A DNA stretch of 64,000 nt from Niveispirillum cyanobacteriorum. GTDB lineage: Bacteria; Pseudomonadota; Alphaproteobacteria; Azospirillales; Azospirillaceae. Position 1 is the first letter of the stretch, and every line of letters begins with the position of its first letter. The translations under genes and the position numbers were made by a program. The stretch covers positions 124,001 through 188,000 of the forward strand of contig NZ_CP025611.1 of assembly GCF_002868735.1 (NCBI RefSeq). The letters run 5' to 3'. Positions 42,384 to 64,000 of the stretch are shown in pieces. The notes beneath the pieces are model-generated. The model had not been told where the DNA came from and did not search any database. It saw only the letters and a program-made list of their open reading frames with translations.

Positions 42384-42460
<77 letters not shown>

Positions 42461-42509
42461 CTTTTCTTTGAGGTTCAGGTGCACCCTGACAAGTGCGCCG
42501 TTGTCCTGT

Positions 42510-42586
<77 letters not shown>

Positions 42587-42635
42587 CCCTTCGCGGTGGC
42601 CGTCCTGGAGAGGGCGCTAAATTCTTCCACCCTGC

Positions 42636-42712
<77 letters not shown>

Positions 42713-61490: not shown

Positions 61491-61745
61491 ATGGGTTGGG
61501 CAACCTGGGCCGCCATTTACTTCACCATCTGGTGGACAGTCCTGTTCATGGTGTTGCCGTTCGGGCGCAAGCAGGAGGGGGACGCGCGGGAGGTCGGGCA
61601 CCAGCCCGGTGCGCCCGCCCGGCCCATGATCATCAGGAAGTTCATCTGGACCTCCATCATCTCCGCCATCATCGTAGGTACTCTCTGGGCTAGCGGCCAT
61701 TTCGGCCTAGTGGATTGGAAGGGCCTGTTGCGGGGCGAACCCTGA
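61491..61745 (+). CDS. DUF1467 family membrane protein
   Basis: An 84-residue protein with two membrane helices (about 5-23 and 51-68), the DUF1467 pattern of short alphaproteobacterial membrane proteins. The first helix is WAAIYFTIWWTVLFMVLPFG, followed by a Glu/Asp- and Pro-rich loop. AAGGAG precedes the ATG at 61491. It is 22 bases after mce. The function of the family is unknown. Confidence 0.88.
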   Translation: MGWATWAAIYFTIWWTVLFMVLPFGRKQEGDAREVGHQPGAPARPMIIRKFIWTSIISAIIVGTLWASGHFGLVDWKGLLRGEP

Positions 61746-61835
61746 CGGGTCTTGTGAATACAAAACAAGAACAAACCCTGGGACATCTGTCGCCTGATCG
61801 GCTATCCTGTTTGCGTTTCAAGCAAGGTGGACAGA

Positions 61836-62405
61836 ATGTCAGGCTACTGCGATATCGCCCCGGGCCATGAATGGCATGGCCCCTATCATGACCATGAATA
61901 TGGCGTGCCCCTGACGGGGGATGATGAGCTGTTTGAACGGCTGATCCTGGAGATCAATCAGGCGGGCCTGTCCTGGCTGACCATCCTGAAAAAGCGGGAA
62001 AGCTTCCGTGCCGCCTATGCCGGGTTTTCCGTGGACCGCGTAGCGGCCTTTGGGCCGGATGATGTGGACCGACTGCTGGCCGATCCCGGCATCATCCGCA
62101 ACCGGCTGAAGGTCCATGCCGCCATCCACAATGCCCAGGTGATCCAGCGGCTACGCGACAGCCATGGATCGTTCCATGGTTGGCTGCTGACCCATCACCC
62201 GAAATCCAAGGCGGACTGGGTGAAGCTGTTCGCCAAGACCTTCCGCTTTACGGGTGGGGAGATTGTGGGCGAGTTCCTGATGAGCATCGGCTTTCTACCG
62301 GGCGCACACCGCGCCGATTGCCCCGCCATGATCGCTCTGTCGAATCATGATTTGCCCTGGCGTCGGGCCATTACCAGCGGGTTTGCTGGATACACCGCCT
62401 TCTGA
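61836..62405 (+). CDS. tag: DNA-3-methyladenine glycosylase I
   Basis: Tag removes 3-methyladenine from alkylated DNA. The 189-residue protein has the zinc-binding set Cys5, His18, His158 and Cys162 (SGYCDIAPGHEW and GAHRADCPA), the catalytic Glu39 region LILEINQAGLSWLTILKKR, and the helix-hairpin-helix part. AAGGTGG precedes the ATG at 61836; an upstream GTG is less likely. It is the last plus-strand gene before the 631-base gap. Confidence 0.95.
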   Translation: MSGYCDIAPGHEWHGPYHDHEYGVPLTGDDELFERLILEINQAGLSWLTILKKRESFRAAYAGFSVDRVAAFGPDDVDRLLADPGIIRNRLKVHAAIHNAQVIQRLRDSHGSFHGWLLTHHPKSKADWVKLFAKTFRFTGGEIVGEFLMSIGFLPGAHRADCPAMIALSNHDLPWRRAITSGFAGYTAF

Positions 62406-62479
62406 TTGGGCAAACATCTGTTCGGATGGACGGCATTTGCACAAGAGATGTGCACAAACCCAAAAATCGAACAAATAAA

Positions 62480-62508
62480 AAGGCAAGCCGACAAAATCGG
62501 CTTGCCTT
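62480..62508. terminator. bidirectional terminator after tag
   Basis: AAGGCAAGCCGA (62480-62491) pairs with TCGGCTTGCCTT (62497-62508) over a 5-base loop, with a T-rich run on the minus-strand side (complement of 62467-62479). It may end both the tag transcript and any minus-strand read-through. Confidence 0.85.
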
Positions 62509-62540
62509 CATATTCAGAAAGTTAAAAACTTATCTTGTCG

Positions 62541-62631
62541 AACGGGGTTGGATCCCTGTTTTGACACCGCCTGGTGGCGATTCCTCCCTAAACTCAGGCC
62601 GCGCTGCCTTGCTGGCGCGGTCTTTTCTTTT
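62541..62631 (+). ncRNA. candidate small RNA with CCUCCC motif
   Basis: The stretch has three features in order: hairpin AACGGGG/CCCTGTT (62541-62547 with 62554-62560), a small hairpin CGCC-TGGT-GGCG (62568-62579), and an unpaired CCTCCC (62583-62588) complementary to Shine-Dalgarno sequences. It ends at a terminator stem CCGCGC/GCGCGG (62599-62604 with 62615-62620) followed by TCTTTTCTTTT. A weak promoter (TTCATA at 62507, TATCTT at 62531) lies upstream. No ORF explains these signals. Confidence 0.5.
62599..62631 (+). terminator. terminator of the candidate small RNA
   Basis: CCGCGC (62599-62604) pairs with GCGCGG (62615-62620), followed by TCTTTTCTTTT. It has no protein gene immediately upstream on its strand. 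Confidence 0.75.
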
Positions 62632-62980
62632 GTGGGGCGGAGTATAAGCACCCCCGGCGAAACCCGTCACCATCAAAATTCGATCTGCACGATGCCCGCA
62701 CAAAAATGCAGCGGCCAGTGTGGCCGCATTGTCACGATTGCATGCATCCAATCGTCTTCATGCCATTGCGGCATGGCTGCGGGATGACGGCTAATGCACC
62801 TAATGCATTGATAAATATGAGTATTCATGGAAAGTGAATTTTTTGTGATCGCCTGTGCTCTGTCGGCAGTTTACGTCAACGGCAGTGCTGACTGAAAATT
62901 AAACATATGCCTATTTAATAGGCAATGATACCGCTATCATATTTTTGCCTGCTTACTGAACGGGCTTCAAGGCAGTGAAT

Positions 62981-63013
62981 GAAAAAGGGGCCGCCCCGCA
63001 GGGTGCGGCCCCT
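62981..63013 (-). terminator. terminator of the purine permease gene
   Basis: AGGGGCCGC (62986-62994) pairs with GCGGCCCCT (63005-63013) over a 10-base loop; on the minus strand the stem is followed by a T-run (complement of 62982-62986). Lies just after the permease stop. Confidence 0.88.
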
Positions 63014-63036
63014 GTCATCGAATCCGCGAGAATCAG

Positions 63037-64000
63037 TCACGCCAGCAGAATGAATTTCAGCAGGAACAGGGCCGCCAGCACCGCCACGACCGGCCCGACA
63101 TCGCGCCAGCGACCGGACAGGATCTTGATGCCGGCATAGGTGATGAAGCCGATGGCGATGCCGTGGGCGATGGAATAGGTCAGTGGCATGGCAATCGCCG
63201 TCATCACGGCGGGCGCATAATCCGTCACATCCTCCCAATCCACCTCGGTCAGGCCGCGCGCCATCAGGCAGGCGATGTAGAGCAGGGCCGGGGCCGTGGC
63301 ATAGGCGGGGATGTTGGCGGCCAGCGGGGCAAAGAACAGGCAGGCCACAAACAGGACGGCCACCGTCACCGCCGTTAACCCGCTGCGTCCGCCAACATTG
63401 GTGCCCGCCGCGCTTTCGATGTAGGAGGTGACGGTGGAGGTGCCCAGGGCCGCGCCAACGGTGGTGGCCGCCGCATCGGCAAACAGGGCGCGTTTCAGAC
63501 GCGGCAGCTTGCCATCCTTGTCCAGCAGGCCCGCGCGGTGCGACACGCCGATCAGGGTGCCCGCCGTATCGAACAGATCAACAAAGAAGAAGGCGAAGAC
63601 CACGGTGATCAGCCCCACGCTGAACGCGCCTTTCAGGTCCATGGCCAGGAAGGTGGGGCTGGGGTCGGGCGGCAGGGAGATGATCTGCCCGTTAAATGGC
63701 GAGGCGCCGATGACCATGCCCACGATGGCGATCACCAGAATGGTTAGGATCACCGACCCCATGACCTTCCGCGCCGCCAGCGCACAGAGCAGGATGAAGC
63801 CGATGGCGGCCAACACCGGCTGCGGCTTGGTCAGGTCGCCCATGGTGACCAGGGTGACGGGATGCGCCTTGATCAACCCGGCATTTTCCAGGGCAATGAT
63901 GGCCAGGAACAGGCCGATGCCAGCGGATATGGCCATTTTCAGGGTGCGGGGAATGGCATTCACCACCGCTTCGCGCACCGGCAGGACCGACAGGATGATG
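63037..64000 (-). CDS. NCS2 family purine permease (AzgA-like), 5' part missing
   Basis: The coding frame is open to the right window edge, so only the C-terminal about 321 residues are seen; the true start lies outside. It is an NCS2/AzgA-type transporter for adenine, guanine or hypoxanthine. The conserved SAAGTNVGGRSGLTAVTVAVLF segment (family motif with the Gly/Thr substrate loop) and FFVDLFDTAGTLIGVSHRAGL are intact. Earlier helices such as KMAISAGIGLFLAIIAL also match. It ends at an intrinsic terminator. Purine or xanthine-type control could not be checked because the promoter is outside. Confidence 0.95.
   Translation of the reverse strand, partial: IILSVLPVREAVVNAIPRTLKMAISAGIGLFLAIIALENAGLIKAHPVTLVTMGDLTKPQPVLAAIGFILLCALAARKVMGSVILTILVIAIVGMVIGASPFNGQIISLPPDPSPTFLAMDLKGAFSVGLITVVFAFFFVDLFDTAGTLIGVSHRAGLLDKDGKLPRLKRALFADAAATTVGAALGTSTVTSYIESAAGTNVGGRSGLTAVTVAVLFVACLFFAPLAANIPAYATAPALLYIACLMARGLTEVDWEDVTDYAPAVMTAIAMPLTYSIAHGIAIGFITYAGIKILSGRWRDVGPVVAVLAALFLLKFILLA

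Follow-up and report, generated by a model that had tools for sequence, protein, structure and literature searches.

The tag-permease intergenic region

In the 64,000-nt stretch of the Niveispirillum cyanobacteriorum genome analysed here (contig NZ_CP025611.1, positions 124,001 to 188,000; hereafter the window, whose coordinates are used throughout), the tag gene and a convergent gene for a xanthine/uracil permease are separated by an intergenic gap of 631 nt (62406-63036). The earlier note on this DNA had given the same gap size; tag ends at 62405 and the permease gene occupies 63037-63999. The region contains the following features:

61836-62405, + strand: tag, DNA-3-methyladenine glycosylase I (PF03352; TIGR00624 119.3 bits against a cut-off of 232.5)
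62479-62509: hairpin in the spacer ahead of the sRNA, resembling a terminator on the - strand, with a tail poorer in T on the + strand
62502-62507, + strand: putative -35 element TTGCCT, overlapping the tag terminator hairpin in its 3' arm
62525-62530, + strand: putative -10 element AAAACT (CAnnnT in most relatives), at 17-nt spacing from the -35 element
62536-62631, + strand: predicted sRNA gene of ~96 nt, tag-linked alpha-r8 (MmgR/SisA) branch (RF00519, model R1, fold z)
62536-62566, + strand: 5' hairpin of 12 pairs, variable in sequence and kept in structure (covariation and single folds)
62568-62579, + strand: central hairpin CGCC-UGGU-GGCG of 4 pairs, nearly invariant and diagnostic of the tag-linked branch
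62580-62595, + strand: 16-nt segment AUUCCUCCCUAAACUC, unpaired in the predicted fold, the anti-Shine-Dalgarno seed
62596-62632, + strand: intrinsic terminator (stem 62596-62623) with a T-rich tail (scan, fold and covarying stem)
63037-63999, - strand: xanthine/uracil permease (PF00860), convergent with tag

The hairpin in the spacer between tag and the sRNA is strongly folded on the - strand (z = -6.17 for 62480-62520), and a similar hairpin is seen in many of 25 aligned relatives. On the permease side, a further strong terminator-like hairpin missed by the pattern scan lies 3' of that gene on the - strand (62975-63020, z -5.11, five U).

Architecture and structural conservation of the RNA element

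The two hairpins, the CCTCCC (62583-62588, unpaired in the predicted fold) and the terminator with a T-rich tail that had been proposed from the letters are all present. The element does lie at the coordinates originally assigned to it, 62541-62631, but its start does not hold up equally well: that segment folds with z = -2.27, with 5 of 200 shuffles equally stable, because a start at 62541 cuts the 5' stem, as against z = -4.10 and none of 200 shuffles for 62535-62630. The 5' end of the RNA is thus more likely to lie at about 62536-62538, to judge from the modelled fold.

The structure was further assessed in a covariation alignment of 53 distinct sequences, one canonical row among them, over 26 pairs. 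Because this alignment was fitted to the structure, its counts lean toward the modelled pairs: 91.7% of cells are paired, against 80.8% after shuffling and 41.7-54.4% after sliding, and 19 pairs show changes on both sides, against 11.0 after shuffling. All 11 modelled pairs of the 5' hairpin have both-side changes and 85.4% of their cells are paired, with the outermost pair failing in 24 of the 53 sequences. Variation in the central hairpin is confined to a single pair, and the terminator stem covaries. The 5' hairpin is also present in most single folds of 21 distinct sequences, two of which (L014 and L025) have folds no more stable than their shuffles. It was not predicted in the first RNAalifold run because the alignment was out of register there. 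In the minimum-energy folds of the 21 sequences, the 12 nt that begin with UUCCUCCC are entirely single-stranded in 11, the window's included, and at least partly paired in 10, and the latter folds speak against a simple picture of a permanently open seed.

The abundance of terminator-like hairpins, of which 61601-63600 holds six where 2.1 are expected, and the two ORFs that cross the element (62426-62647 and 62548-62787) would suit an account in which it is no regulatory RNA at all and consists of leftover terminators or a short coding region. The earlier note had stated that no ORF explains the element; such frames do exist, but none is conserved beyond the closest relatives. The frames are kept in the two closest relatives compared (L002 and L003), but the other eight differ in both their length and their sequence, one frame running to 102 codons in the window as against 26 in L007-L009, 123 in L010 and 29 in L017, so that a conserved ORF does not explain the element. 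Moreover, an exact 25-nt block recurs in 45 named stretches between variable, covarying stems, and the permease possesses the terminator-like hairpin of its own noted above. We regard this account as very improbable.

A divergent branch of the alpha-r8 family

The earlier note had left the family of the RNA open and had proposed a covariance-model search of Rfam; run here, it identifies the element as part of a divergent alpha-r8/MmgR branch. Searched with Rfam at gathering thresholds, the window yields tRNAs and nothing else. Below them, the best match is that of the suhB/MmgR model RF00519 to 62562-62637 at 34.3 bits, with an E-value of 1.7e-5 in a 401-nt search and 5.9e-5 in the whole-genome search, and the alignment covers model positions 1-77 of 77, although the score falls short of the curated cut-off of 41 bits. 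The genome further contains two canonical copies, at C1:622340 and C3:790913, scoring 56.7 and 56.0 bits, next to which the window copy ranks third. The remaining 33 of the 36 genome-wide matches have E-values from 0.0016 to 9.4, and most of them are taken as chance because all 14 control genomes also yield matches at E <= 10. At E <= 0.05, RF00519 is found in 36 of 40 genomes, 33 of them above the cut-off, as against 5 of 14 controls, with one above it. Other weak Rfam matches, RefA9, ar9 and Qrr among them, were set aside as far below their cut-offs.

A model of the branch itself, R1, built from 11 rows including the window's own sequence, matches 62537-62635 at 87.6 bits. The branch copy falls under the RF00519 cut-off in 16 of the 18 named loci scanned. 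A few copies of the branch pass it: those of G007 and G019 (41.5 bits each) and, among the named loci, L183 (45.1) and L207 (41.5), the last being the G019 contig. By sequence, the window RNA is homologous to alpha-r8 without being a strict RF00519 member, and represents a divergent and mostly unannotated branch. This shows why annotation by the Rfam cut-off overlooks the tag-linked copies.

With Sinorhizobium meliloti MmgR and RF00519 at large, the window copy shares its length, the order of its parts, the CCUCCCUA seed and the AACUCAGGCCG-type terminator start. The parts of PMC7143759 drawn on here describe MmgR as having three stem-loops and an anti-Shine-Dalgarno motif and as limiting PHB granules in S. 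meliloti; according to the corresponding parts of PMC12559287, it has no known direct target. The latter source characterizes alpha-r8 RNAs, in those parts, by a 10-nt single-stranded UUUCCUCCCU below a weak hairpin, a Rho-independent terminator and association with Hfq. The window copy likewise ends in a Rho-independent terminator (62596-62632), and its seed, AUUCCUCCCU, is identical to the 10-mer in 9 of 10 letters, the mismatch being the first base, which is A in the tag-linked branch instead of U. The two forms are otherwise told apart by the central hairpin, of the ...UUCUUGGGCGU type in MmgR/RF00519 and CGCC-UGGU-GGCG in the window copy, and by UUUCC in the former against AUUCC in the latter. 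The canonical copies of the same genome share TTCCTCCCTAAACTCAGGCCG with the window copy, whereas they have GGGCGT before TTCC and tag was not found upstream of them. As to setting, single-copy alpha-r8 adjoins an N-formylglutamate amidohydrolase gene, unlike the window copy with its tag and permease neighbors, and paralogues at other locations are allowed for in the family description (both from the parts of PMC12559287 drawn on here).

The own genome also holds, at C3:791577-791651 on the - strand, a weak RF00519-like match of 28.8 bits that contains TTTCCCTCCC and ends like a terminator. A canonical alpha-r8 copy is encoded ~660 nt away on the opposite strand, and matches at similar spacing occur in G003, G008 and G010; the element is possibly a further anti-Shine-Dalgarno RNA.

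Distribution and linkage to tag

A DNA match to the element is found in 26 of the 40 genomes, the own genome included, with G037 matching via its canonical copy only; the same-genus relative G008 is identical over the queried 111 nt. The conservation across Azospirillaceae relatives that had been called for as a check was examined with R1, which matches all 82 genomes of the order, detecting both branches; the covariation of the stems is described above. At the level of the class, the core 20-mer with at most one mismatch occurs in 40 of 385 genomes (reversed pattern, one), far more than chance would give, and the letters read show the GATTCC form in 18 of these 40, including families beyond Azospirillaceae. 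The 45 named stretches with the exact 25-mer are largely from Azospirillum and Niveispirillum, the others including Arenibaculum, Oleisolibacter, Oceanibaculum and unnamed alphaproteobacterial bins. When distinct 46-nt seed regions are compared, 48 end in TGGCGA before TTCCTCCCT and 41 in GGCGT; of the six others, four are no sRNAs but chance matches or target sites.

The branch is distinguished by its neighbor. A same-strand tag gene occurs no more than 600 nt upstream of 49 of the 66 distinct branch sequences, as opposed to none of 45 canonical ones, counting distinct 100-nt sequences with identical ones merged and scored as linked if any copy is linked. In 36 of the 45 named stretches, tag ends 85-367 nt ahead of the 25-mer block. 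Among the nine without it, L216 has only 399 nt upstream, while others such as L186 and L190 have more than 7 kb and still no tag. Outside the own family, tag is found upstream in G038 and G405 (f16), in G279 (f87) and in G215, G315 and G396 (f135), while seven other GATTCC-form loci (L151, L161, L164-L166, L171 and L176) do not have it. In the flanking sequence examined, the permease is found close to 14 of the 45 blocks. L216 itself, whose bin is labelled Anaerolineae, has a tag-type block close to a permease resembling that of the window; it is probably an alphaproteobacterial contig placed in the wrong bin. Within ~1.3 kb, Niveispirillum sp. SYP-B3756 carries a canonical copy, tag and a tag-linked copy (L185:3776-5096), the canonical copy on the opposite side of tag.

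PMC12559287, as far as drawn on here, does not speak of the tag-linked branch, nor are suhB, mmgR or the seed letters found in the portion covered of the main text of a paper on Azospirillum brasilense sRNAs (PMC7685610). The branch was likewise not found in the sources searched, in the parts of them covered, and an earlier description is possible. Niveispirillum and Azospirillum gain a clearly separable extra sibling in their alpha-r8 set, and the question of whether the alpha-r8 copies are redundant or each have their own condition and targets becomes testable. We put forward tentatively, as less likely than not, the idea that the tag-linked copies form an ancient and separate sRNA family in alphaproteobacteria of the Azospirillum type, with its own regulon and an invariant hairpin serving a second function as a protein site or a longer seed, which has largely been missed for lying just under the Rfam cut-off.

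Promoter and probable independent transcription

The earlier note had placed a weak promoter ahead of the element. A generic promoter scan yields nothing on the + strand of the gap, but the relatives support a conserved promoter, which in the window reads TTGCCT/AAAACT. The pattern TTG-N3-N17-NANNNT is present in 46 of the 53 sequences, against a mean of 3.6 and a maximum of 9 under shuffling, and the alternative spacers of 15, 16, 18 and 19 nt occur in 5, 4, 6 and 11 sequences; similarly, 47 of 54 rows have CTTGC 5' of the hairpin, in most cases at a distance of 36-38 nt, against a shuffled mean of 4.2, all these shuffle controls being ones that ignore kinship among the sequences. The position of this promoter puts the transcription start at the base of the first hairpin.

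The linkage to tag raises the possibility that the sRNA is instead processed out of the tag mRNA at its 3' end, following tag expression without a promoter of its own. The same-strand tag upstream of most branch sequences is in keeping with this, as is the hairpin 3' of tag, which has few T after it on the + strand. However, the -35/-10 pair at its fixed 17-nt spacing is still present at many Azospirillum loci where the upstream hairpin looks lost (judged by eye), and among the 64 branch sequences for which 800 nt or more of upstream sequence could be inspected, 16 have no tag within 600 nt, which argues against such processing and makes it, in our estimate, unlikely. Since the promoter shares sequence with the tag terminator and seems to be retained where that hairpin is lost, the RNA is probably transcribed on its own.

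Proposed mechanism and candidate targets

The claim of an sRNA with an exposed anti-Shine-Dalgarno stretch is borne out by the alpha-r8 homology, the covarying stems, the conserved promoter and the conservation in Azospirillaceae. We consider it highly likely that the element is an independently transcribed, Hfq-assisted, trans-acting sRNA of ~96 nt homologous to alpha-r8 (MmgR; SisA-D). Homology, structure, promoter, conservation and neighborhood were computed for it, while its expression, Hfq binding, repression of targets and role in uptake and catabolism we infer by analogy with its relatives. In the mechanism that we propose, a sigma-70-type promoter at the end of the tag terminator hairpin would drive the sRNA, the 5' hairpin and the terminator would protect it, and the U-rich 3' end formed by the T-rich terminator would probably be the site of Hfq binding. 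The exposed AUUCCUCCCUA would then pair with purine-rich Shine-Dalgarno sites of several mRNAs and block their translation, and, going by the studied relatives, the sRNA may thus keep uptake and catabolic genes down. The genome encodes Hfq (111.3 bits), and as the window RNA has 9 of the 10 letters of the alpha-r8 10-mer, unpaired in its predicted fold, and a U-rich end, anti-Shine-Dalgarno pairing is the likely mechanism.

The closest parallel is furnished by SisA-D of Caulobacter crescentus, which, in the parts of PMC12559287 drawn on here, are likewise several siblings per genome at separate loci with nearly the same seed. SisA carries the 10-mer given above and represses 8 of 10 tested fusions, including those of TonB-receptor mRNAs, pairing with which is predicted through that 10-mer; confirmed SisA targets thus include TonB receptors, as do some candidate targets of the window sRNA. 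In Caulobacter, CrfA acts as a sponge that titrates SisA, and in each of the four siblings it is this 10-mer with which CrfA pairs (same source and parts). This precedent lends some color to the notion that the window RNA is mainly a sponge or decoy titrating purine-rich RNA rather than acting on mRNAs. For the window sRNA, on the other hand, no CrfA-like partner was identified in a search of the own genome for matches longer than 10 nt, in which the complement of the 13-mer with at most one mismatch gave no dedicated partner, and the exact 13-mer occurs once in each of the 24 positive genomes among 40 relatives, with one extra site in G022. A primary decoy role appears to us quite improbable. 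As an extended seed for target search, the 13-mer was likewise discarded: its complement occurs at seven places, three of them on alpha-r8 genes, and the other four have no ATG shortly downstream and no obvious role.

Under the preferred reading of a trans-acting sRNA, candidate targets were sought through GGGAGGAA, which lies 2-8 nt ahead of an ATG at 54 places in the genome (reversed pattern, 4). These prove no regulation, because GGGAGGAA before ATG is simply a strong ribosome site, and the part of the seed that pairs with it is common to the siblings and the window sRNA. Thirty of the 54 sites were examined as loci. ORFs of 80 aa or longer follow in 24 of them, and Pfam names 19 of these ORFs, among which are three TonB receptors, a tryptophan halogenase, two chemotaxis receptors, an MFS transporter, a 3-hydroxyacyl-CoA dehydrogenase and an AMP-binding enzyme. 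They are at most suggestive of a link with uptake and catabolism.

The sole perfect 10-nt site outside sRNA genes precedes an MFS gene of aromatic-acid-transporter type (TIGR00895, below cut-off), which has homologues at E <= 1e-60 in 4 of 40 genomes, its own included. This site was rejected as a target since it is missing in the nearest orthologue (89% identical, in G010). The phasin genes suggested by MmgR have no matching site before the listed starts, one true start perhaps lying outside the stretch checked. AGGGAGG in the window, at five matches where 8.96 are expected, was also dismissed, the four outside the sRNA preceding no sizeable ORF. Elsewhere in the window, three tRNA genes of equal score lie at 126-nt spacing on the + strand (42384-42709).
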